NCBI GenBank assembly: GCA_031264185.1
Contig: JAISEL010000089.1
Coordinates: forward strand, 1 to 35,132
DNA length: 35,132 bases
Direction: 5' to 3'
Origin: Deltaproteobacteria bacterium
GTDB lineage: Bacteria > Desulfobacterota > Desulfarculia > Adiutricales > Adiutricaceae
Under the pieces are notes generated by a model that saw only the letters and a program-made list of their open reading frames with translations, was not told the origin of the DNA and searched no databases. The position numbers were made by a program, and so were the translations under genes. Shown one piece after another: positions 3,632-14,987 of this stretch (the first letter of the stretch is position 1; the number at the start of each line of letters is the position of its first letter).

Positions 3632-4200
3632 TTAAGATAATGCCTTTGGCACAGCCGGATTTGCCGTGATCATATGTTTTTTTACTTTCTTTGTGCCGTT
3701 TTGCGCTCCCTTAAGGGTTTTGCGGACATTTGAATTAAGTTCCTCCTGTTCATGAGGGCGGGGCAGCTTGCGCAGCGCACTTTTTAATATGCTTTTCAGA
3801 TGCTCATCAGGGTCCGGCTCCGGCGGATACGGAGGCAGACGGAAAATCACAATCCTGTCATGATGATTTTTCAGCAGCGCAGCAGCCTTTTCCGAATGAT
3901 GAGCTCTAAGGCTGTCAGCTGCAAGAAAAACTTTACTTGAAGATCTTGCCGCAAGCTTCTTCATGAAATTGATAAGTGCACCAATTTCTGCTGACTCCGA
4001 AGATGGCGGTTATGACATCTTTCCAATAAGCGGAACAGCTGAAATGATATTCAGTGCAAGGCGCCTGCCTGTGGCCGTAAAGCCAAAAAACGGATCAGAA
4101 ACAGTCGGTATAAGGAGTTTTGCCTCCGTAACGAATCTGCTTCCAGTAACTGTTCTGCTGCTGCTCTTACGGGATATCCGGGCGCGGCGGTAATAAAACC
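3632..4200 (-). pseudogene. Decayed IS630-family transposase (first lineage)
   Basis: The minus-strand frame from 3964 to 3632 encodes the end of an IS630-type DDE domain: VFLAADSLRAHH carries the second catalytic Asp, and PPYPPEPDPDEHL matches the usual PPYSPELNPDEYLN with its catalytic Glu. The same frame continues upstream through an internal stop (near 4013) into RRLALNIISAV, which fits the ISAI segment of the family, and TEAKLLIPTVSDP, where the first catalytic Asp (usually DEA) has become Thr. The N-terminal DNA-binding half is missing. The element is therefore inactive. It sits between the FecR gene and the 3' end of the glycosyltransferase operon. Confidence 0.75.
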
Positions 4201-4340: not shown

Positions 4341-5597
4341 TTACCCCAGGGCGCCCAAAGCGTCTGCGGCCTCCAGGAATCGCTTTCTGGAGACTGAATC
4401 AGGCCAGATTTTAAGGGCCACGGCTCGGAAAAAGTCCGGCTGAGGCCGGCGGCCTGGTTCCGGGCCGGGCAAATCCGGAACATAGTCCGGCTCCAGGACG
4501 GCGCAGGCTCCTTCCCGGATAATCAGGGCCTGCCGCTGTTCTGCTGTCGGCTCTCCGAGCGGAGTGAGTTTATACCCGAAACTGTCCAGACTGGTCAGGA
4601 ATGCGCCTTGAAGGTTTTCCGGCTTTTTGCTGTTCAGGATACAATTGACCGCCTCAGCTGCCTGGCAGACCTCCGGAACAGCCTGACAGAGGCGGGAGGG
4701 ACAGGGCCGGCCTTCCGAGCAGGGGGCGCAGGGAGCCGGAGTCTGGATAACCAGCTGATTCTCTCTGTAAGGTCCGGTCTCTCCGGCCCAAGCCGGTCCG
4801 AAAAAAAGGCTTACGACCTCGGTGCCTAAGGCGGCCCCCAAATGCATAACTCCGGTGTCGCCGGAGATCAGAAGCCTGAGTCCGCTGACTGTTCCGGCCA
4901 GCTCGGATAAATCAGTCTGTCCCGCCAGATTCGTCAGTTCTGTCTCCGGACTTATGTTTTGACAGACGGCCTTAGCCAGAGCCCTTTCCCCCGGTCCCCC
5001 CAGCAGGACCGGTCTGAGCCCGAATTTACGGGCTAAAATTTCGGCTATGGCCGTAAATTTCTCTCTCGGCCAGCGTCTTCTGGGGCTGCCCGCGCCTAGC
5101 ACCAGTCCGGCCTGCTGATATTTTTCGGAACTGAAATTTCCGGGCCAGAACAGTTTTCTGTCAGCTAAAAAGCCTGGTTCAATGCGGCGCCAGATATCGA
5201 CTAAATTGAAAGGGGACAGGCGGCGGTTTATTTTAAGGACATTTAAAGCTATTTCCTGGGCCTGGGGCAGAATCAGGCGGCCTTTTCTCTGGTGGGGGCC
5301 GAAGATCGCTGAGCCGGGGTTGGCGGCCAGTATTTTGTCGGCCAGAGCCAGAGCCGGGGGAGCCATGGACAGATTATAGACAGTCAGGCGGCCCGGCGGA
5401 ATGTTTTTTAAATTTGGATCTTTTAAGTCAACTTCCAGGACTTCGGTAAATAAATTGGAGATTTTAGCCGCCTCGGTGACCGATTTCTGGGCCGTTAATA
5501 CATAGATCTCGTCCGCTCTTTGACTCAGGCTTTTAAATACCGGGCTGGCCTGGATAAAGTCCCCCAGTTTGGCTAAGGCCAGGACCAGGGCTTTCAT
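4341..5597 (-). CDS. GT9-family glycosyltransferase (ADP-heptose:LPS heptosyltransferase-like)
   Basis: The protein has 418 residues. It starts MKALVLALAKLGDFIQASPV, the typical GT9 N-terminus (nucleotide-sugar transferase, GT-B fold). The C-terminal Rossmann half shows GLVLGAGSPRRRWPREKF and SGDTGVMHLGAALGTEVVSLFFGP, the conserved donor-site motif. GT9 enzymes transfer heptose or related sugars. A Cys-rich stretch (CAPCSEGRPCPSRLCQ) matches the cysteine cluster often seen after that motif. The last roughly 100 residues are an extra tail that I do not recognise. The ATG overlaps the stop of the preceding gene (ATGA), so translation is coupled; this is the last gene of the operon. Family sure, sugar unknown. 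Confidence 0.85.
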   Translation of the reverse strand: MKALVLALAKLGDFIQASPVFKSLSQRADEIYVLTAQKSVTEAAKISNLFTEVLEVDLKDPNLKNIPPGRLTVYNLSMAPPALALADKILAANPGSAIFGPHQRKGRLILPQAQEIALNVLKINRRLSPFNLVDIWRRIEPGFLADRKLFWPGNFSSEKYQQAGLVLGAGSPRRRWPREKFTAIAEILARKFGLRPVLLGGPGERALAKAVCQNISPETELTNLAGQTDLSELAGTVSGLRLLISGDTGVMHLGAALGTEVVSLFFGPAWAGETGPYRENQLVIQTPAPCAPCSEGRPCPSRLCQAVPEVCQAAEAVNCILNSKKPENLQGAFLTSLDSFGYKLTPLGEPTAEQRQALIIREGACAVLEPDYVPDLPGPEPGRRPQPDFFRAVALKIWPDSVSRKRFLEAADALGALG

Positions 5598-7285
5598 GAA
5601 CCGGCTCCGAATATGACCTTGAACATCTCTTGGAGGCGGTGGGTGTAAAGATGCTGCCCCAGGACCCGCGTTTTGGCTTTTTGGGCCGCGTTCTGTCTTT
5701 CCCTGGGGTGAGCCAGGTACTCTTTGGCCAGGCTTTTGGCTTCCTGAGGCGAGGCATAGGTCACTATTTCGTCCTGTTCAAAAAGGCCGTTCAACTGCTT
5801 TCTGAAGTCGGTCAGCAGAAAGCCCCCGCAGGCCGGCACGTCAAAGACCCTCTGGTTGAGGCCGGTTTTCATCTGGGCGCTGGTGATGTTTAAATTTACG
5901 GCCGTGGAGCGGTAAAAAGGGGCCAGATCCCGGTAGTAATCCAATTGACCGGCCAGAGAGACCTCGGGCAGGATTCCGGACCAGCCGCTGTCGCCGCAGA
6001 CAGTCGGGTTCAGATCCTTGAGGGTCCTCAGGACCTTGATTCTGGCCAGACGGCCGGCTCTCCAGGTAATTAAGGCTAAGAGGTTTATTTTCTGGTCCGG
6101 ATCCAAGTTTTCCTTTTCCGCCAGAAGGCCGCTTAACCCGTCCGGCAGGAGATCGGCATTTTTTAAAAATTTAACAGCCATCCGGTCAACGGCGGCCAGA
6201 TGATGAGCTTTAAGCCCCGACAGGGCCAGATATTTTTCCGTGGCCGCAGTTAAGCTGTCGCCGACAAAAGCCAGGCCCCGTCTCAGGGGAGTGTCTTCCT
6301 GGCGGAAAATAGCTGGATCGGTGGCTAAGGGCAGGTAGTGAACTTTACTGAAACCGTTCTGCCGCAAAAACTCCAAATAATCACTGTCCCAGGAAAAGAC
6401 AAAAATATCGCCCTGAGGTCCGGGTTTAAGGATGTATGCCGGGCTGTCGACAAACCAGGAGGCTACCGGCAGGCCCAGCCGGGCAAAGACACTGGCTAAA
6501 ATGCCTTCCGTGTCCAGGCCTAAATGATTGACAGTCAAAACCAGTTCCGGACGGTAGTCCTTAATCTCCCGGAGAAGCTGCTGGTACTCCCGCCCTTCGG
6601 TCTTGGTCAGGGAAAAGCTCCACCTTCTGACGGAGGCCCTTAAGCTTTCGGCGGCCCTGGGGATCTCCCTGGCCAGATAGTAGCCGGCGTCTAAAAATAA
6701 AATCCGGGGCGGCTTTATCCGGCGGGCTTTCATTTTTGAGGGATAGAGATGACTGTCCAGCCTTAAATTGGCCGGCCGGGCCAGAAGCGTCCGGGGGGCA
6801 TCCGGCGGCAGCCGGGAGCCCGGGCGGTTTTCTAAAAAAAGCCTGAAGCCCGCCGCCTTTAGAACAGTCTTTAAATCCCGGGCCGCTAAGGCCGCCGCCG
6901 CCAGTTCCGGACGAGCTTCCCAGAGCCACAGAGGGCTGTCCGGGGGCAGTTTCTGCAGAAGATATTCCAGATGGTAGCCCAGGCCGAAGCCTATGACCGT
7001 TAAACCGTGAGTCACGGATCCGGCTTTTAAAAACTCATCAGCCAGAAGAATATCTTCTTTCTGGGGATCTAAGCCGCTGGTCAGTCTTTTGGGGCCGGCG
7101 CCCAAATCAATGGCCAGGGCCGGAAAACTGCTGCGGCCCTGAGTTAAAATTACTTCGCCGGCGGAAAAAGGAAAACAGAAGCTTTCTCCTCTCATCTGCG
7201 GCCGTAAATCTTCGAGCCTGGCCGCTTCATGAGGCTGCTTCTGCCTTAATAAGGCCAAATTTTGGTCAAACCAGGAGAGTATCAC
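5594..7285 (-). CDS. CgeB-like glycosyltransferase with Maf-type N-terminal module
   Basis: The protein has 563 residues and a GTG start (VILSWFDQN), overlapping the end of the GT4 gene by 20 bases. The N-terminal 180 residues contain TVIGFGLGYHLEYLLQKLP followed by an acidic Glu position (LWEARPEL). The same layout (GLGLGWHL...VVYEP) occurs at the N-terminus of the Maf-like protein encoded at 9564-11174. Residues about 190-560 form a CgeB/DUF3880-type glycosyltransferase: PPRILFLDAGYYL, SWFVDSPAYI, FSWDSDYLEFL and, near the end, LNLNITS with RVFDVPACGGFLLTDF, the CgeB signature. It probably transfers a sugar to a protein or glycan acceptor in the cytoplasm. The fusion of the two modules is noteworthy. 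Confidence 0.75.
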   Translation of the reverse strand: MILSWFDQNLALLRQKQPHEAARLEDLRPQMRGESFCFPFSAGEVILTQGRSSFPALAIDLGAGPKRLTSGLDPQKEDILLADEFLKAGSVTHGLTVIGFGLGYHLEYLLQKLPPDSPLWLWEARPELAAAALAARDLKTVLKAAGFRLFLENRPGSRLPPDAPRTLLARPANLRLDSHLYPSKMKARRIKPPRILFLDAGYYLAREIPRAAESLRASVRRWSFSLTKTEGREYQQLLREIKDYRPELVLTVNHLGLDTEGILASVFARLGLPVASWFVDSPAYILKPGPQGDIFVFSWDSDYLEFLRQNGFSKVHYLPLATDPAIFRQEDTPLRRGLAFVGDSLTAATEKYLALSGLKAHHLAAVDRMAVKFLKNADLLPDGLSGLLAEKENLDPDQKINLLALITWRAGRLARIKVLRTLKDLNPTVCGDSGWSGILPEVSLAGQLDYYRDLAPFYRSTAVNLNITSAQMKTGLNQRVFDVPACGGFLLTDFRKQLNGLFEQDEIVTYASPQEAKSLAKEYLAHPRERQNAAQKAKTRVLGQHLYTHRLQEMFKVIFGAGS

Positions 7286-8396
7286 TTCTTTGACCGCCGG
7301 TTTGAATAATATCCCGGGCCGAACTCTGGGCCCTTAAACTGAGCTTGAAAAGCCGTTCCCATTCCCCGGCGATCTGATCCCAGGCGTAAGAGGAACGGAT
7401 GACGTTTCTGGCCTTCAGAGCCAGTTTTTCGGTTCTTTGGGGGTTATTAAGCAGATACAGTGTCCGCTCGACAAAGCTTTGCCAGTAGGAAGGGGTCCGG
7501 GGCCGTCCGGGAACTTTAAATTCCTCCAGCTTGACTGATTCGGTTAAAGCGTAGTCATTAGTTGTAACTAACGGCGTACCCAGGGCCTGAGCTTCCAGAA
7601 CGACCAGGCAGCTGATTTCCGGAAAGCAGCAGGGGTAAACCAGTAAGGCCGATTCGGCCAGATGCCGGTAATAGTCTTTTTTGCCCAGGGGGCCCAGATC
7701 AATAATATCGGGATCGCTTTTAACCAGCAGATTAAGATAACTGTACAGCTCCTTAAGTTCCGGAGAGAGGTAGTCGGCCGACATCTGATAGCCGCAGAGA
7801 TGGAGCCTGAGTTCGGGTTTGGCCTGTTTCAGGCGGGGCCAGATCTTTTCCAGAAGTATTTTCAGGCCCCTTTCCGGTCTGGAGGCGTATAAAAGCTTAT
7901 GAGGGTCTTTCCGGGCGCCTTTTGAAGCCTCATCCAGCAGATTAAAATCCAGGCCGTTGCGGGTGACGACCATGCGGTCTGAAAGCTGAGGCAGTCTGGT
8001 CAGGAAATTATCCCGGTGGAAAGCCGACAGAACTAAAAACAGATCTATTTCATCGTGGACTGACTTAAGGACCTGAGTATTGTCTAAAGTGTCATGGTTC
8101 CACAGGACTTTGACTGCGGCCCGGAAAGGGATATTGAAGACCCCGAAAAAGCGGCTGACCACAAAGACGTCAAACTTCTCCCAAGCCAGACGGTTCAAAG
8201 TCGAGCGGAAAGGGTGGTACTGGACTCCCTGGTGGACGGCTGACCGGGCGCAGTTATTGAAGGCCGTAATCTCATGGCCCAGCCGGTTTAAAGCCCTGGT
8301 CACGCTGATGAAGGCGCTTTCGCTGCCGCCTAAGGGTTGTTTTTCCAAACTGTCCCCCTCAAAAGGCACGCCGTCGGTAAAAAAGCCGATCTTCAT
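7266..8396 (-). CDS. GT4-family glycosyltransferase
   Basis: The protein has 376 residues. The N-terminus MKIGFFTDGVPFEGDSLEKQ and GGSESAFISVTRALNRLGHEIT fit the acceptor domain of GT-B retaining enzymes. The C-terminal donor domain has LLYASRPERGLKILLEKIWP, LHLCGY, IIDLGPLGKKDYYRHLAESALLVYPC and PEISCLVVLEAQALGTPLVTT, the GT4 EX7E region. The ATG overlaps the stop of the GT2 gene upstream (ATGA), indicating coupled translation within the operon. Donor and acceptor sugars cannot be told from the sequence. Confidence 0.85.
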   Translation of the reverse strand: MKIGFFTDGVPFEGDSLEKQPLGGSESAFISVTRALNRLGHEITAFNNCARSAVHQGVQYHPFRSTLNRLAWEKFDVFVVSRFFGVFNIPFRAAVKVLWNHDTLDNTQVLKSVHDEIDLFLVLSAFHRDNFLTRLPQLSDRMVVTRNGLDFNLLDEASKGARKDPHKLLYASRPERGLKILLEKIWPRLKQAKPELRLHLCGYQMSADYLSPELKELYSYLNLLVKSDPDIIDLGPLGKKDYYRHLAESALLVYPCCFPEISCLVVLEAQALGTPLVTTNDYALTESVKLEEFKVPGRPRTPSYWQSFVERTLYLLNNPQRTEKLALKARNVIRSSYAWDQIAGEWERLFKLSLRAQSSARDIIQTGGQRSDTLLV

Positions 8397-9553
8397 TGGG
8401 CACCGATTCTGTCAATCAGCTTCAGGGCCGATCTGTAGCCGGGAGCTGCGGCCAGAGCCAGTGCAAGATAATCTTTAGCCGCCTTGTTTTGCCCTTCAGC
8501 CAGGGCCAGACGGGCCAGTTCAACTTTAGGTTCCGGCCGTCGGGGGTAAATTCCGGCCGCTTTTTCAAAAGCTGCTTTAGCTCCGGAGCTATTACAGGCT
8601 TTCTTTTGAAGGCTGCCCAGTAAAAAGGCCGCCGTATAGGCCAGTTTTTCTCCGTCCGCCCCCCAGGCCGGATCGTTTAAATCCAGCTCCAGAGCCCGGG
8701 AAAGTTCGGCTGCAGCCGACTCCGGCTTAAGTTCGGCCAGCAGCCGGCCTAAGTAATAACGGCCCGGTCCGTAGTCGGGCCTTTGGTCAGTCAGAGTTTT
8801 TAAACAGGCCCCGGCTTTTTGAAAATGTCCTTGTTTCCGGTAGATCTGAGACAGCATAATCCGGGCGTGACCGGCCAGGGACGGGTTATCCGGCTTGCCG
8901 GCGGCCAGCTCAAGCCAGGAGACAGCTTCATCGAATCTTTTAAGATTAAATAATGTCCGTCCGGTCTGGTAGAGAATGTAAAAATCGGTCTTGCAGCTCA
9001 GGGGGTTTTTCAGTAAAAGCTTTAGGTTTCTTTCTCCTTTGGCTTTGGCGGCTTTCAGATCGGCGTACCCCCAGTGAAGAATTTGAAGGGGGCTTTTTAT
9101 GACCGGGAAAAAGGCCGGGTGAGTCAGCTGCTCATGGATCCGGCCGGTAAAATAAACCTCCGGGCGGTTGGGAAAAATTCTCTTCTGCAGAATCCTGTCG
9201 CCCTGGGGGATAACTTTTTCTTCAGCTAAATAGACGGTCGGGTTTAAAGACAGTTCCGGCCGGAAGCGGGCCAATTCCCCTGGTTCAAAAGAATTATCCC
9301 CGTCCAGCCAGAAGATGTAGTCTGTTTTAAAGAGCTTTAAACCAAAATTACGGGCCAGGGAAAAATCATCCTGCCATTTATGAAATATAACTTCCGCTCC
9401 CGCCTGCCGGGCTATGCGGGGGCTGCTGTCAAGCGAACCGGTGTCGACGACCACTATCTGGTCAAAAGAACCGGCCGCAGGCAGCAGGCTTTTCGGCAGA
9501 TTCTGCTCTTCATCCCGGATAATCATAAGTAGTCCCAAAGAAGCTGTAGTCAC
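8393..9553 (-). CDS. GT2-family glycosyltransferase with C-terminal TPR-like repeats
   Basis: The protein has 386 residues and a GTG start, chosen because it places SLGLLMIIRDEEQNL at the usual N-terminal position; an internal ATG (residue 10) would cut the first strand. The GT2 (GT-A) domain shows IVVVDTGSLDSS, WQDDFSLARNFGL and WLDGDNSFE, the metal- and nucleotide-binding DXD-like site. After about residue 180 it continues with helical TPR-like pairs (TGRTLFNLKRFDEAVSWLELA, QIYRKQGHFQKAGACLKTL, GRYYLGRLLAELKPESAAAEL). This GT2-TPR layout is common in protein-glycosylation loci. It lies 10 bp after the Maf-like gene. Confidence 0.85.
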   Translation of the reverse strand: MTTASLGLLMIIRDEEQNLPKSLLPAAGSFDQIVVVDTGSLDSSPRIARQAGAEVIFHKWQDDFSLARNFGLKLFKTDYIFWLDGDNSFEPGELARFRPELSLNPTVYLAEEKVIPQGDRILQKRIFPNRPEVYFTGRIHEQLTHPAFFPVIKSPLQILHWGYADLKAAKAKGERNLKLLLKNPLSCKTDFYILYQTGRTLFNLKRFDEAVSWLELAAGKPDNPSLAGHARIMLSQIYRKQGHFQKAGACLKTLTDQRPDYGPGRYYLGRLLAELKPESAAAELSRALELDLNDPAWGADGEKLAYTAAFLLGSLQKKACNSSGAKAAFEKAAGIYPRRPEPKVELARLALAEGQNKAAKDYLALALAAAPGYRSALKLIDRIGAQ

Positions 9554-9563
9554 GGAATTACCA

Positions 9564-11174
9564 TTACAGCCCGGAAAGCATCTTTAAAACCAGACCCTCG
9601 GCTTTGGTCAGTTCTTTTAAAACGCCGGCCCGGCTGCCGCTTTTCATGGCCCTGGTTAAAATCTGAGCCATAAACGCGCTGGCCCTGGAAATGGCGGCCA
9701 TCTCGCTTAAAGCCTTGGGCATCTGGCGTCCGGCCAATTGCCTCAGGGAGCCTAAAATACCGCCCATCTGACGCAGATCGCCTTTTATTTCCTTTAAGCT
9801 CGGTTTGGGCAGACGGTCTAAATGGGCGGCCAGATTCAAAGGTGTCTGTCTGGGAAGCGAGGCTAAGACGGCGTTTAAGGGGATCTCTTCAAATCCCCGG
9901 ATAGCCGCCCCGGCGGCGGAGGCATTAATCAGCCTGATCCGGCTGTTTTTCCTTTTTACCGTCTGGGCCGCTTCCGCGTACCAGTTAAGGGAGGCTAAAA
10001 GTCCGGTATTGGTTTCCACCGTGGTCCCGAAAACTCCTGGCACAGTGAGGGTCTGACCGGGATCGTCTTCAGTTACGCTGTCCGCCGTATCGGCGGCGTG
10101 AAGAAGCCTGCCCTGATAAGCCTGATCCTGGCCGACTAAAATTAGAGGATTCAGGCCCCAGACATAAGCTAGGGCAAAAGCGGCCGTCCCGGCGTTGCCG
10201 CCCTGGGGCAAAAACAGGCCCTGGCTGAGAAGCTGAGCCTGGCCGCCGTTTAAGTGATACAGGCTCCGGTAATAGCCCGGTACTTTAAAATGGGCCGGAT
10301 GGCAGCCGGCCGCGCCGGCCAGTACAGTCTGCGGCTGGAGATTCTGGGCTTCCTGGGGGGTGAGTTCTAAATATCTGGCAGTGTCGGCTGATTCCAAAAC
10401 CATAATAACCTGGGGGCTGACCCCCAAGTTCAGTAAAGGTTTAACCGCAGCTGAGGCGCAGATAATAAGTCCGTATTCGGCCGCCTCTTTCAGCTGAGCC
10501 CCGTTCTGGTCGAGACTGGGACCGGCTCCGACCACAAAAGCCGGTCTGGGGGTCAGACGGCCTTTCAGCAGAAGAACATCCGGCAGGGCGCAGCAGAGGC
10601 GGATATTTTCTATGAGGTTGTTTAAAAAAGCCGAATCAGTGGCTTCTTTGGTTTTTTCAATGACTTCCCGGCGGCTGAGTTCGGCTTTCAGGTGGGAATG
10701 AAATCTGGCCGCTTCCCTGGGCCACAGAGCCCGGTAAGCCGGTACGGTGACAATTAAAGGATCGGGTCCCGGTTTATGGACCAGCTCCCTGGCCACAAAA
10801 GCCTCAAAAGACGGCCAGTCCGTGACAATCTCCGCCTCAAAGCCGGTTACCCGGCGGTCAATGTAAGTCCGGACGAGTTCTTTCGTCGGTTCGTAAACCA
10901 CCAGTCTTATGCCCGGAAATCTGTCCCGGATAATTTTCAGATGCCAGCCCAGACCCAAGCCTAAAATAAAAACCATAGCCGGAGCCGGGCCCGGCTCTCT
11001 TTGGGCGGCGGCTTCGTCTAACCACTGCCGGGCCTCGCCTAAAGGATCCTCGGGCCAATGAACAGTCTGACCTTTATACATAAGGCCCGGCCCGATGGGG
11101 CCGGGCAGGATCTGCGGAGTCATTAAGGCCGGATTTAAGGCCTGGGTATCGTTCATTGACAGGTTAGGCATCAT
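9564..11174 (-). CDS. Maf/MptE-like protein (DUF115), putative flagellin glycosyltransferase
   Basis: The protein has 536 residues. The ATG at 11174 has GGAG five bases upstream. The central domain (about 200-420) is the MptE-like/DUF115 fold: PAFVVGAGPSLDQNGAQLKEA (the GxGPSL signature), ICASAAVKPLLNLGVSPQVIM, and GGNAGTAAFALAYVWGLNPLILVGQDQAY. The N-terminal part has a Rossmann-like motif (FILGLGLGWHL ... VVYEP). This matches motility-associated factor (Maf) proteins, which attach nonulosonic acids to Ser/Thr of flagellin in the cytoplasm. Its place among glycosyltransferases behind a sigma-54 promoter supports that role. No genes for pseudaminic or legionaminic acid synthesis are in the window, so the donor sugar is unknown. 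Confidence 0.8.
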   Translation of the reverse strand: MMPNLSMNDTQALNPALMTPQILPGPIGPGLMYKGQTVHWPEDPLGEARQWLDEAAAQREPGPAPAMVFILGLGLGWHLKIIRDRFPGIRLVVYEPTKELVRTYIDRRVTGFEAEIVTDWPSFEAFVARELVHKPGPDPLIVTVPAYRALWPREAARFHSHLKAELSRREVIEKTKEATDSAFLNNLIENIRLCCALPDVLLLKGRLTPRPAFVVGAGPSLDQNGAQLKEAAEYGLIICASAAVKPLLNLGVSPQVIMVLESADTARYLELTPQEAQNLQPQTVLAGAAGCHPAHFKVPGYYRSLYHLNGGQAQLLSQGLFLPQGGNAGTAAFALAYVWGLNPLILVGQDQAYQGRLLHAADTADSVTEDDPGQTLTVPGVFGTTVETNTGLLASLNWYAEAAQTVKRKNSRIRLINASAAGAAIRGFEEIPLNAVLASLPRQTPLNLAAHLDRLPKPSLKEIKGDLRQMGGILGSLRQLAGRQMPKALSEMAAISRASAFMAQILTRAMKSGSRAGVLKELTKAEGLVLKMLSGL

Positions 11175-11186
11175 AACTCCTTAAAG

Positions 11187-12728
11187 TTAATTGACCGATA
11201 AGTAAGAGGCTCGGCCTGCCTGGGCAAAGATGGAGGCCAGCGTTTCGTCGGCGGGATGGTGTTCCAGAGCTTTCTGAGCCGTATCGACCGCCTCGGCCAT
11301 GGCTCCGTATTCCAGCAGGATAGAGGCCATAGCCTGGGCGCTTTCCAGATCATCCGGTCTGGCCCTGACTGCGGTCTGATAAAATTCAAAAGCCGTCCAG
11401 ACGGCCGGATCGTGGGGCATACGGCTGAATCCGGGACTGACTGTCTCGCCCATTTCCCTTAATTTGCGGCCCAGCTTTTTTACCGCCTCAAAGGGCAGAG
11501 TATCGGGCGGCAGGTCGGGAAACTCTCCGTCGCCGGTAAAGCGGATCAGCCACTCTTTGGCTTCGGTCAGGCGTCCGGAGGCCAGTTCCAGTATGCCTAA
11601 GCCCAGAGCTCCCCGCTTTTCGCCTTCTTCATAAGCCCTGGTCAGTAACGTGCGGCCCCGGTCAGGATTGTCTCTTAAACGGCATATGTGGCCTAAGCAA
11701 AACAGCCCTTTGGCGCTTATGACTTTATGGTCCAGAGCTTTGTTCAATAGCGACTCGGCTCTTTGGATCCTTTTAAACCCTTCTTCTCTCGGCCATCTCA
11801 GAGCGGTCAGGAAAAGAACCTGGCCCTCGCGGTCCCAGGCCAGAGAATCAATTAAAGCCTGGCCCGGGTTTAAGCCCTTGATGGCGGCCATAAGTTTCTC
11901 GGCCCTGTGGTGAATGTCGTGGGCTGCAGTCATTTTCTCCAGAGCTCTGCTGGCTACTCTCTGGCGCCTTTTGTCGTCTTCCAGCCAGGTTTCGGCTGCC
12001 CCCAGGATATCCTCCGGCTCAAACCAGGCGAAATCCTCGCCGACTTTAAACAGCTCCCCCAGATCGCCTCCGGCTTTTTCGGTAAACAGCACCGCCCCCG
12101 AGGCCATGGCTTCCAGCATCCTCATGGTAATTCCGGGAAAGAGGTTCTCATTTAAAGCCAGTTTGGACTGACGGTACAGCTGGCCGGATTCGGCCGGGCC
12201 GACCCAGCCGTTTTGATGGGAACCGGCTGTTTTAACGGTATAGCGGCTGGAGAGTAAATCGACCATACGGCTTCTTTTGGGCCGGTTGACGGGATCTAAG
12301 CTGCCTACAAACCCGAAGTCATAGATTTTTTCCGTGGTGTCTTCCGGCATAGCCGAGTAACTTTTAACATCCACTCCGACCGGCAGCCAGGCGGCGGCCA
12401 GACCGTCCTGATTTAACCGGGCGGCCAGAGGTTTCTGGTCAGTGAATACATAATCAAACAGACGGGCAAAATCCCGCTGCCACCAGAAGTTGATGGGAGT
12501 ATCAACGGCGTAGTAAACCTTGGGAATGCCGTAGATATTGGTCAGTCCGTCCGGCCAGAAATGGGCGCCTAAGTGGTCGGTATAGACAATCAGGTCAGGC
12601 CGGTCTTTGAGGTTGTTGAAAAGCGTGTCGATGGGGTAGCCTTCCTGGTGGGGCGGGGCAATGACCGTATGGCCCATGGCGTGGAAAGCCTGGTGGAAGT
12701 ATTCGCTGCCCAGACAAATAATCAGCAT
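11187..12728 (-). CDS. CgeB-like glycosyltransferase with C-terminal TPR-like repeats
   Basis: The protein has 513 residues. The ATG at 12728 has GGAG seven bases upstream and lies 3 bases after the stop of the radical SAM gene. The N-terminal half (about 1-300) is a CgeB-type glycosyltransferase: MLIICLGSEYFHQAFHAMGH, YAVDTPINFWWQRDFARLFDYVF, FVGSLDPVNRPKRSRMVDLL, and LALNENLFPGITMRMLEAMASGAVLFTE, the donor-binding segment. The second half is helical with TPR-like units (FCLGHICRLRDNPDRGRTLL, and near the end FYQTAVRARPDDLESAQAMASIL with YGAMAEAVDTAQKALEHHPAD). It probably modifies a protein acceptor. Confidence 0.8.
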   Translation of the reverse strand: MLIICLGSEYFHQAFHAMGHTVIAPPHQEGYPIDTLFNNLKDRPDLIVYTDHLGAHFWPDGLTNIYGIPKVYYAVDTPINFWWQRDFARLFDYVFTDQKPLAARLNQDGLAAAWLPVGVDVKSYSAMPEDTTEKIYDFGFVGSLDPVNRPKRSRMVDLLSSRYTVKTAGSHQNGWVGPAESGQLYRQSKLALNENLFPGITMRMLEAMASGAVLFTEKAGGDLGELFKVGEDFAWFEPEDILGAAETWLEDDKRRQRVASRALEKMTAAHDIHHRAEKLMAAIKGLNPGQALIDSLAWDREGQVLFLTALRWPREEGFKRIQRAESLLNKALDHKVISAKGLFCLGHICRLRDNPDRGRTLLTRAYEEGEKRGALGLGILELASGRLTEAKEWLIRFTGDGEFPDLPPDTLPFEAVKKLGRKLREMGETVSPGFSRMPHDPAVWTAFEFYQTAVRARPDDLESAQAMASILLEYGAMAEAVDTAQKALEHHPADETLASIFAQAGRASYLSVN

Positions 12729-12731
12729 GAT

Positions 12732-13856
12732 TTATCTCCATGTGGTGGCTTGAGGATTTACGGGATGCGCAGTTCCCGCCAGGTGAGGCCAGTTTATCTC
12801 GCCTTCAGGCTCGCAGCCGCTGACGTCAGTTTCGCTGGTTCCGGTCTTTTTCCAGGCTGAACACTCGGGATTGGCCGCTTGCCGGCAAAGACGGCAGCTT
12901 AGATGGTTTTGGCCGCCCTGGGCCAGGTCCGCCGCTGACGGACAATTCCAGGCTTCGTATAAGCTTAAATCCGGAAAGCGGCCCAAAGGAGTCAGACGGC
13001 CGAAATCCGAGCAGCAGGGAAAGAGTCCGCCGTCAGCCAGTAAAGCCAGTCTCGTCCGAGGTTCGGTGCAGAGACCTCCTTCTGAAGGTCTGAGGCCCCA
13101 GGCGGTCTCATCGCGGCCCAGTATATTCTGGTAATTTTGAATGGACAGATAATCGGCTAAAGGTCCGAACAATGCCCGGAACTGACTTTTCTCCGAGGCA
13201 TTCAAACTCATGTCCACAAAGCTTAGGCGCAGAAGAGGGGTTACAGAACCCAGATTTTTTCTGATAGCCAGGAAGGATTTGATATTCTCCAAAAGCAGGT
13301 CAAAGTTGCCGCCGGGGCGTATTTTTTGGTATGTGTCTGAGGAGGCCGCATCCACCGAAATCATAAGGCGGGTCAGTCCGCTCAAAATAAGCTTCCTGCT
13401 TAAATACGGAGTCAGGTACTGGCCGTTGGTGATCAGCGATAAGTCCATAACCCCGAAATCCCGGGCTGCAGTGACCCAGTTATCAATATCCGGAACCAGT
13501 AAAGGTTCTCCGGTCATCCCCAGCCTTAATGAGGGAAGACCGTATTTGCCGCCTTCTCTTAAAGCGGCTAAGTAGAGGCTTTCCGGCAGGAACAGACCCA
13601 GAGAGGGAAACTGAGGATCTTTCTGTCCGGCCGGGCACATGGGGCAGGCCAACTGACAGACGGTGGTGATGTCCACATCCAGATGAAGAGGAAAATGCGG
13701 CCGCTGGCCGGAAACAGCCAGGCTGAAGTCCCGGCGGTACCGGGCAAACTTTGGTCCTTTGAGCTTTATCAGTATCTCATTAGGATCCCTCGGGCTTTCC
13801 AGCTCCGAGCGCTGAACAGGCGGCTTTTCTCTTCCTTCGGTCAGTGCAGTGGCCAT
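12732..13856 (-). CDS. Radical SAM/SPASM-domain protein
   Basis: The protein has 374 residues. The ATG at 13856 has AAGGA about 9 bases upstream. The radical SAM cluster site is CQLACPMC (CxxxCxxC, residues about 68-75), followed by GMTGEPLLVPD and LITNGQYL, typical of the TIM-barrel core. The C-terminal part has the SPASM-type auxiliary cluster cysteines: GGLCTEPRTRL, GGLFPCCSDFG, LSCRLC and PECSAW. Members of this group modify peptides, cofactors or sugars; the substrate is not evident. It is the first gene of the glycosylation operon, 97 bp downstream of a sigma-54 promoter, so a role in making or attaching the sugar is plausible but only inferred. Confidence 0.85.
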   Translation of the reverse strand: MATALTEGREKPPVQRSELESPRDPNEILIKLKGPKFARYRRDFSLAVSGQRPHFPLHLDVDITTVCQLACPMCPAGQKDPQFPSLGLFLPESLYLAALREGGKYGLPSLRLGMTGEPLLVPDIDNWVTAARDFGVMDLSLITNGQYLTPYLSRKLILSGLTRLMISVDAASSDTYQKIRPGGNFDLLLENIKSFLAIRKNLGSVTPLLRLSFVDMSLNASEKSQFRALFGPLADYLSIQNYQNILGRDETAWGLRPSEGGLCTEPRTRLALLADGGLFPCCSDFGRLTPLGRFPDLSLYEAWNCPSAADLAQGGQNHLSCRLCRQAANPECSAWKKTGTSETDVSGCEPEGEINWPHLAGTAHPVNPQATTWR

Positions 13857-14378
13857 CGTAAAGTCCTTACCGTTAATTAATGCCGTTTATCTTTTGGCCG
13901 GATAACACAGGACAGCCCAGGGTGGGAAAATCCTGTCGGTTGACCTCAAGTAAGCAAATACAGTGCCAAAAAGCTGGGAAAAAACTGACTGTCCGGGGAG
14001 GTGAAGGCGGAGCAGCTTAAAAGGGGAAAGCCTTAAACCGGCTTAGGTTTAAGCAGTTACCGGGAGATAAAAAGACAGTTGTAGCATCAAAAGTCGGGCT
14101 GCCGGCCCTGGCCGCCTTTGGCCGGTGACTCGGGAAGAATGTTTCCCGCACCGAGCGTTTAGGGCAGCCCCCAGTCAAGATTGTTCCGGAACCGAATCGC
14201 CCGGCAGCGGTCCGGGACTTTTGGCCTGCGGCCGGCAAGACGGCTACGGAACTCCCGGCGGAGTCGGGCGGGGCCCCGGCAGCTCCGAACCGGTTCCGGC
14301 CGAACCATTGAGAACCTGGAGACTCCGGAAGACTTTGTTCGGCCCGGATGGGACAGAATCTTAGCGGAGCAGACAGGC
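13857..14378. other. Gap between IMP cyclohydrolase gene and glycosylation operon
   Basis: 522 bp with no supported gene; the GC-rich open frames at 14017-14396 overlap each other in opposite directions and resemble nothing I know. It contains the sigma-54 promoter at 13953-13968. Confidence 0.5.
13953..13968 (-). promoter_or_regulatory. Sigma-54 (-24/-12) promoter of the glycosylation operon
   Basis: The minus strand reads TGGCACTGTATTTGCT. This has GG and GC separated by exactly 10 bases and matches the consensus TGGCAC-N5-TTGCW at every fixed position. It points toward the radical SAM gene, whose ATG is at 13856, giving a leader of about 85 bases. Sigma-54 promoters commonly drive flagellar genes, which fits the Maf-like gene in this operon. 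The enhancer-binding site was not identified. Confidence 0.8.
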
Positions 14379-14987
14379 TTAAGGGACAAGTCTTAAGGAC
14401 TGACTGGCCAGATAATCCCGGATAGCCGCGTCATAGGCCGAAGTCCGGGCAAAGGCTTTTAAGGCCAGGCCTTTTAGTGTATTGAGTCCGATGCCGCCCT
14501 GATTTTCGATCATCTCTTTGATTATAAGGGAGTAGTCGCTCGGCTCGGACAGAACGGCCACATGGGCGTGGTTTTTAGCCGCCGCCCTAAGTAAACAGGG
14601 GCCGCCGATATCAATATTTTCCAGGGCTAAGGCCATGGCAGCGCCTTCCTGGGCGACCACTTTTTCGAAAGGATACAGATTAACTACCACCATATCAATG
14701 GCCGCCCACTTGAGAGCGTCCATCTGTTTTTGGTGCTCGGGGTCATCGCGGCGGTACAGAAGACCGGCGTGAATTTTGGGATGCAGGCTTTTAACCCGGC
14801 CGTCCAAAAGTTCCGGCGAGCCGGTGTAGTCTGAAACTTCGGTAACTGTAAGTCCGCCCTGAGTCAGGGCCCTGGCTGTGCCGCCGGTGGAGATTAGAGC
14901 GGCCCCCGCATTTTGAAGGAAAACTGCCAGATCCAAAAGGCCGGTTTTATCGGATACGCTTAAAAGGGCCTGCTTAATAAAGAGCAT
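14379..14987 (-). CDS. Stand-alone IMP cyclohydrolase (N-terminal PurH domain)
   Basis: The protein has 202 residues, the size of the MGS-like IMP cyclohydrolase domain only. It starts MLFIKQALLSVSDKTGLLD, then LISTGGTARAL, VSDYTGSPELLDGRVKSLHPKIHAG, VVNLYPFEK, and ENIDIGGPCLLRAAAKNH, all signatures of PurH residues 1-200. It closes FAICAR to IMP, the last step of purine synthesis. Bifunctional PurH has about 520 residues including AICAR formyltransferase; that domain is absent and no fragment of it appears downstream, so the transformylase must be encoded elsewhere. The clean stop and intact motifs argue for a natural single-domain enzyme, as known in some Desulfobacterota, rather than a truncation. 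GGAGG lies 10 bases before the ATG. Confidence 0.9.
   Translation of the reverse strand: MLFIKQALLSVSDKTGLLDLAVFLQNAGAALISTGGTARALTQGGLTVTEVSDYTGSPELLDGRVKSLHPKIHAGLLYRRDDPEHQKQMDALKWAAIDMVVVNLYPFEKVVAQEGAAMALALENIDIGGPCLLRAAAKNHAHVAVLSEPSDYSLIIKEMIENQGGIGLNTLKGLALKAFARTSAYDAAIRDYLASQSLRLVP

Follow-up and report, generated by a model that had tools for sequence, protein, structure and literature searches.

Glycosylation of flagellin affects both the assembly of the filament and the way in which hosts perceive the bacteria that carry it. In the Maf-dependent systems, among them Aeromonas caviae Maf1, Campylobacter Maf/PseD and Clostridium botulinum Maf, flagellin is modified in the cytoplasm before export (PMC4065374). 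A second type of enzyme is represented by FlmG of Caulobacter, in which TPR repeats are fused to a glycosyltransferase domain and plausibly recognise flagellin (PMC7591256). The sigma-54 control of flagellar genes is well documented in Desulfovibrio vulgaris, where 19 flagellar operons constitute the largest single function among the sigma-54 operons (PMC4641369). The Maf system, the sigma-54 control and the TPR-bearing flagellin transferases are thus already known. What is new in the locus described here is a radical SAM gene at the head of what is very probably a flagellin glycosylation operon.

Operon content and the Maf protein

The window, which is the whole stretch of 35,132 nucleotides that was analysed, belongs to a 4.4 Mb draft genome in 166 contigs, which was analysed through pattern searches, protein family searches and selected stretches. 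It carries seven minus-strand open reading frames that run from 13856 to 4341 in the order radical SAM-CgeB-Maf-GT2-GT4-CgeB-GT9, separated by gaps of 3, 12 and 10 nt or joined by overlaps of 4, 20 and 4 nt. The head gene (12732..13856) encodes a radical SAM enzyme, as judged from Pfam Radical_SAM and SPASM matches, alignments and an AlphaFold model. It is followed by a CgeB-like glycosyltransferase with C-terminal TPR repeats (11187..12728; Glyco_trans_1_2 and TPR), a Maf-type flagellin glycosyltransferase (9564..11174; MptE-like and a weak Maf_flag10_N match, with a model compared to 5mu5), a GT2 glycosyltransferase with TPR repeats (8393..9553; Glycos_transf_2 and TPR, and synteny) and a GT4 glycosyltransferase (7266..8396; Glycos_transf_1, and synteny). 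A second CgeB-like glycosyltransferase (5594..7285) matches Glyco_trans_1_2, DUF3880 and Maf_flag10_N, the last being part of the Maf N-terminal domain. The final gene (4341..5597) encodes a GT9 glycosyltransferase of the heptosyltransferase family (Glyco_transf_9, and synteny). None of the seven proteins scored above the cut-off of an NCBIfam equivalog. The preliminary description of this DNA had reported a packed seven-gene set in which neighbours overlap by 4-20 nt or are no more than 12 nt apart; its layout agrees with these coordinates throughout, and Pfam confirmed its domain calls for all seven genes. We are confident that the seven genes form one sigma-54-dependent operon, which builds a flagellin glycan and attaches it in the cytoplasm before export, as would be expected from the Maf-dependent systems (PMC4065374).

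The identity of the Maf protein, proposed earlier as Maf/MptE-like, was corroborated by its fold as well as by Pfam. Compared with 5mu5, the structure of Maf from Magnetospirillum, the model (pLDDT 87) gives a Z score of 26.7 over 484 of 536 residues and a Foldseek E value of 7.5e-17, while the next-best fold family reaches a Z score of 14.0. The middle domain of the model also matches sialyltransferases that use CMP-sialic acid, with Z scores of 9-9.6. Seven flagellin matches were found in the source genome, several of them giant (1,000-1,700 amino acids), and in the three giant flagellins that were measured (1,067-1,656 amino acids) Ser and Thr make up 20-22% of the central region. One contig (C32), both ends of which are giant flagellin copies, carries NeuB-like, PseF-like, methyltransferase and MNIO-type genes. 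The same set adjoins a 1,150-amino-acid flagellin in genome G006. Both the NeuB-like and the PseF-like protein score below the NCBIfam equivalog cut-offs. No nonulosonic acid genes were found in the genomes of the sister family f2. The match of the Maf middle domain to sialyltransferases, together with the NeuB-like and PseF-like genes, makes a CMP-nonulosonate the likely donor of the modelled enzyme. The NeuB-like and PseF-like enzymes would make the CMP-nonulosonic acid, and Maf, with its GT29/GT42-like catalytic domain, would transfer the nonulosonic acid to Ser/Thr residues of flagellin.

The Maf fold and the NeuB-type and PseF-type genes near flagellins are features shared with the Maf systems named above. 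Unlike in those systems, Maf here is part of a seven-gene operon with two CgeB-like proteins, GT2-TPR, GT4, GT9 and a radical SAM enzyme, and it lies away from the flagellins; the window holds no flagellar genes. Like FlmG in Caulobacter, the TPR-bearing CgeB and GT2 proteins may dock on flagellin. In contrast to FlmG, there are two separate TPR-bearing transferases here, they belong to other glycosyltransferase families (CgeB-like and GT2), and their TPR repeats are C-terminal. Together with GT4, the second CgeB-like protein and GT9, they would add further sugars.

The gene order of the window is identical in every contig of its family, the termite-gut Deltaproteobacteria around Candidatus Adiutrix, that is long enough to contain the operon. 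The packing varies, with a spacing between Maf and GT2 of about 1 kb in G004 and about 4.5 kb in G033. Flagellin is present in 35 of the 37 family genomes and the operon CgeB gene in 33. The orthologues of the first CgeB protein, whose gene opens the ancestral block, share 55-80% identity within the family and 30-40% with their counterparts in the flagellar clusters of sister lineages, and GT4 is the most conserved operon member outside the family. By record name, the carriers are termite-gut Deltaproteobacteria, Candidatus Adiutrix MAGs and Deltaproteobacteria bacterium Smac51 (a complete genome). The isolates may thus be of termite origin, which is read from the record names and not stated in the titles.

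The radical SAM enzyme

The preliminary description had placed an unusual radical SAM/SPASM enzyme at the head of the operon. The radical SAM part of this assignment holds, with the motif C67xxxC71xxC74, whereas the full SPASM part does not. In the alignments the invariant auxiliary cysteines are C263, C281, C321 and C324, with C282 adjacent, and these fall short of the seven cysteines of a SPASM domain that holds two auxiliary clusters. We take the spacing of C263, C281, C321 and C324 to resemble that of the four cysteines in BtrN. The cysteine pattern predicts a one-cluster enzyme of the twitch type, the terms SPASM and twitch being used as defined in PMC6231123 and PMC9012708. As in BtrN, four conserved cysteines would suffice for a fully ligated auxiliary cluster, and MoaA likewise combines a radical SAM barrel with a truncated SPASM (PMC9012708, PMC6231123). 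That an unusual radical SAM enzyme heads the operon was borne out: we found no described flagellin glycosylation system with such an enzyme, and the open-access papers searched yielded no radical SAM enzyme in this role.

The AlphaFold model of the enzyme (pLDDT 87) gave tied matches at Z scores of 20-21 to SkfB, SuiB, BlsE, MoaA, BtrN, anSME and DesII, and because of this tie the fold does not single out a reaction. The superposition on BtrN, a dehydrogenase of a sugar-like alcohol that also has a truncated SPASM, has a Z score of 20.2 and an rmsd of 2.8 over 229 residues; this is a similarity of fold only, as the identity is only 16% over the aligned part. Among solved structures the best sequence matches are AbmM and BlsE, which we take to be enzymes that act on sugar-nucleoside substrates. 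Our best guess for the substrate is a nucleotide or nonulosonic sugar. The enzyme would use a 5'-deoxyadenosyl radical and its one predicted, fully ligated auxiliary cluster, and may oxidise or epimerise a sugar of the glycan or its nucleotide donor.

The history of the gene was followed through its homologues. A scan of the genome contigs found no locus when a single protein was the query and 36 loci when an alignment was used. Three paralogues occur in the source genome (contigs C29, C79 and C119), and their neighbourhoods, which are not glycosylation contexts, give no direct clue to function. In the tree, four tandem copies in G040 correspond one-to-one to these three paralogues and the operon copy. 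The tandem and the glycosylation block of G040 share one contig, and G058, like G040 an outgroup genome, has five copies in tandem. The tandems and the pairing in the tree indicate that the gene belongs to an old set; in the window's family only the operon copy of that set heads the operon. In families f2 and f5 the block lacks the gene, which glycosylation of this kind can therefore do without. We tentatively propose that the twitch-type enzyme alters a nonulosonic or nucleotide sugar in flagellin glycosylation, and that it came from a tandem set of four beside the block, as in G040, of which the other three were later dispersed.

Alternatively, the enzyme may modify a polypeptide, either flagellin or an unseen peptide, in the manner of the RiPP maturases SkfB and SuiB, and be merely co-expressed with the glycosyltransferases. 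Both maturases belong to the group of structures that tie for the best fold match (Z scores of 21.2 and 21.0), and an MNIO-type protein, of a family known from RiPP pathways, is encoded in the nonulosonate locus. We nevertheless regard a polypeptide substrate as unlikely. The model shows no fused RRE, the approximately 54 residues before the barrel forming two helices and one short strand and no RRE-like sheet, although a separate RRE protein may exist; the closest solved structures by sequence, AbmM and BlsE, are the presumed sugar-nucleoside enzymes; and the position of the gene ahead of the glycosyltransferases is conserved.

The sigma-54 promoter

A sigma-54 (-24/-12) promoter, TGGCACTGTATTTGCT, is found at 13953..13968 on the minus strand. 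Read from 13968 to 13953, it is a perfect match (TGGCAC-N5-TTGCT), located 97 nt before the ATG of the radical SAM gene, and it predicts a transcription start at about 13942. Of 27 family loci, 25 have a site with at most two mismatches ahead of their orthologous operon, whereas such a site occurs in 58 of 998 random stretches (5.8%) of the same length; one of the two loci without a site (L180) has an incomplete upstream region. Genome-wide, the perfect pattern occurs 29 times and the reversed pattern not at all, which argues that the site in the window is not due to chance. The count of 29 was dropped as support for flagellar control because about 21 of these sites are members of a CT-repeat promoter family that is unrelated. 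The search for a sigma-70 promoter yielded four candidates against 4.3 expected in shuffles, and the sole upstream sigma-70-like site on the operon strand falls within the next gene. With a perfect sigma-54 site and sigma-70-like sites at the level of the shuffles, the earlier view that the former is the only good promoter upstream was upheld.

The source genome encodes RpoN and a FlrC-type sigma-54 activator. Such activators, flagellins and nonulosonic acid genes were what the preliminary description had suggested looking for, and all three checks favoured its reading. On contig C88 a perfect site precedes a FlrBC-like histidine kinase and NtrC-type activator that adjoin flgF-flgG. A plain perfect site on C107 heads a GT2/TPR gene followed by fliD and fliS, and a site with one mismatch on C124 lies ahead of motA and the fliM...flhA...fliA region. 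The flagellin genes of the source genome have no good sigma-54 site upstream. The first CgeB gene of three sister genomes also has a sigma-54-like site, either at its start or a short distance before it (L095:18806, L101:9915 and L106:1733). The FlrBC-like two-component system and RpoN would switch on the operon along with other mid/late flagellar operons. The arrangement resembles the flagellar regulon of Desulfovibrio vulgaris in its consensus (tGGcacg...tTGCt) and in the NtrC-type control of flagellar operons (PMC4641369). It differs in that the present operon is a separate glycosyltransferase unit; the term 'glycosyl' has no match in the text of that paper.

It could be argued that the promoter is real but driven by a non-flagellar activator that responds to nitrogen, stress or the envelope, since the genome contains many sigma-54 sites and most of them precede non-flagellar genes. 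We consider this improbable, in that plain perfect sites also head the FlrBC-like and GT-fliD-fliS operons of the same genome and flagellar operons are the foremost sigma-54 function in Desulfovibrio vulgaris (PMC4641369).

Flagellar linkage in relatives

The reading of the operon as a flagellin glycosylation pathway, already put forward in the preliminary description, gained support from relatives of the window's genome. In sister lineages the block lies inside the flagellar late-gene cluster. In two genomes of the sister family f2 (G037 and G039) it has the order CgeB-GT2-GT4/CgeB-GT9, without the radical SAM gene, and stands about 3 kb from flagellin, flanked by fliC-fliD-fliS and, at its opposite end, by fliW-csrA-fliC-flgL-flgK. 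In two relatives from the class (G047 and G055) the block comes after flgK-flgL and before fliS-fliD and fliC. The Maf-like and CgeB-like halves of the second CgeB-like protein are separate genes in G037 (locus L095). Between the block and fliS, the same genome has two small genes, one FliT-like and the other of unknown type, and counterparts of both are still found downstream of GT9 in two genomes of the window's family (G029 and G011). From their retention, the operon of the family was probably derived from the flagellar island and later detached. Among the family loci that were read, this FliT-like gene was the only flagellar neighbour of the operon, which, like the lack of flagellar genes in the window, weighs against the flagellar reading.

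The loss of the genes follows the loss of flagella in part of the set. The clearest case is a flagella-less relative (G023, 91% complete) from which flagellin, CgeB and NeuB are all missing and in which flhA has decayed, with nine stops. Flagellin and CgeB are also missing from G026; given an intact flhA and a completeness of 81%, this genome was not taken as a clean case of co-loss. Two genomes count against the flagellar reading, as flagellin is present without a CgeB match (G005, 64% complete; G035, 71% complete). In f5, at an E value of 1e-40, a CgeB homologue occurs in five flagellated genomes (G042 and G044-G047) and is missing in G043 and G048, both of which have neither flagellin nor FlhA. 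Over the class, the co-occurrence of CgeB and flagella has a Fisher p of about 1e-4, uncorrected for relatedness.

That the operon makes LPS, exopolysaccharide or another surface glycan, its flagellar link being historical only and its target perhaps changed after it left the flagellar cluster, is very improbable: the operon is detached from flagellar genes in the window's family and the heptosyltransferase family of GT9 could also point to LPS, but the Maf fold is retained, the genes are lost with flagella in G023, the FliT-like gene is still attached in G029 and G011, and TPR-bearing transferases would suit protein acceptors.

In the flagellin glycosylation reading, a seven-gene pathway has been fixed across a termite-gut family, out of the flagellar cluster and yet still under a sigma-54 promoter. 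Should the radical SAM enzyme modify a filament sugar, radical chemistry would be added to protein glycan biosynthesis, and an orphan enzyme group would gain a testable substrate, either CMP-nonulosonate or the flagellin glycan. If a twitch-type enzyme does act on a nonulosonic or nucleotide sugar in flagellin glycosylation, it would represent a new class among the enzymes that modify the filament, retained by termite-gut bacteria whose flagellins are giant.

Filament genes and glycosylation loci outside the operon

The genome of the window encodes giant flagellins of 1,067-1,656 aa (L038:13169-18139 and L040:10147-17066). Giant flagellin genes adjoin a set of NeuB-like, MNIO-type, methyltransferase and PseF-like genes, both in this genome (contig C32, L190:4621-8795, minus strand) and in the relative G006 (contig C129, L191:9069-14547, plus strand). 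The MNIO-type protein of this nonulosonate locus is MbnB/TglH-like, an unusual member there. Both ends of C32 carry copies related to the giant flagellins, by which the assembly seems to have been broken at these points. On contig C107 of the window's genome, a sigma-54 operon on the minus strand (L146:3704-9194) comprises a 761-aa GT2/TPR protein, fliD and fliS, and is a second filament-tied glycosyltransferase unit.

The relative G023 (2.1 Mb) has no flagellin and carries a decayed flhA with nine in-frame stops (G023:C51:25472-26262); flagella were lost in this reduced genome, which is probably symbiotic.

Operon flanks and radical SAM genes

Directly downstream of the operon lies a 110-aa DDE_3 transposase-like ORF (window 3632-3964, minus strand). 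A stand-alone 202-aa IMP cyclohydrolase-like ORF (14379-14987, minus strand) carries an MGS domain together with no more than the beginning of AICARFT. Radical SAM genes stand in tandem in two outgroup genomes, four in G040 (L090:1460-5629) and five in G058 (L104:61-5320), and each of those in G040 has its one-to-one counterpart among the four paralogues that lie dispersed in the genome of the window.

Sigma-54 promoters with a CT repeat

In one sigma-54 promoter family of the window's genome (22 sites, for example L009:1501, L013:1501 and L034:1501), a (CT)11-44 microsatellite follows the -12 element TTGCT without a gap, so that the predicted transcription start falls within the repeat. Exact sites number 21 in this genome, with 13 in the relative G002, 8 in G006 and few or none beyond the genus. 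Contig ends are often close to these promoters, and the genes downstream include TonB-receptor-like, FecCD-like and DNA methyltransferase genes. We regard them as candidate repeat-length (phase-variable) promoters.
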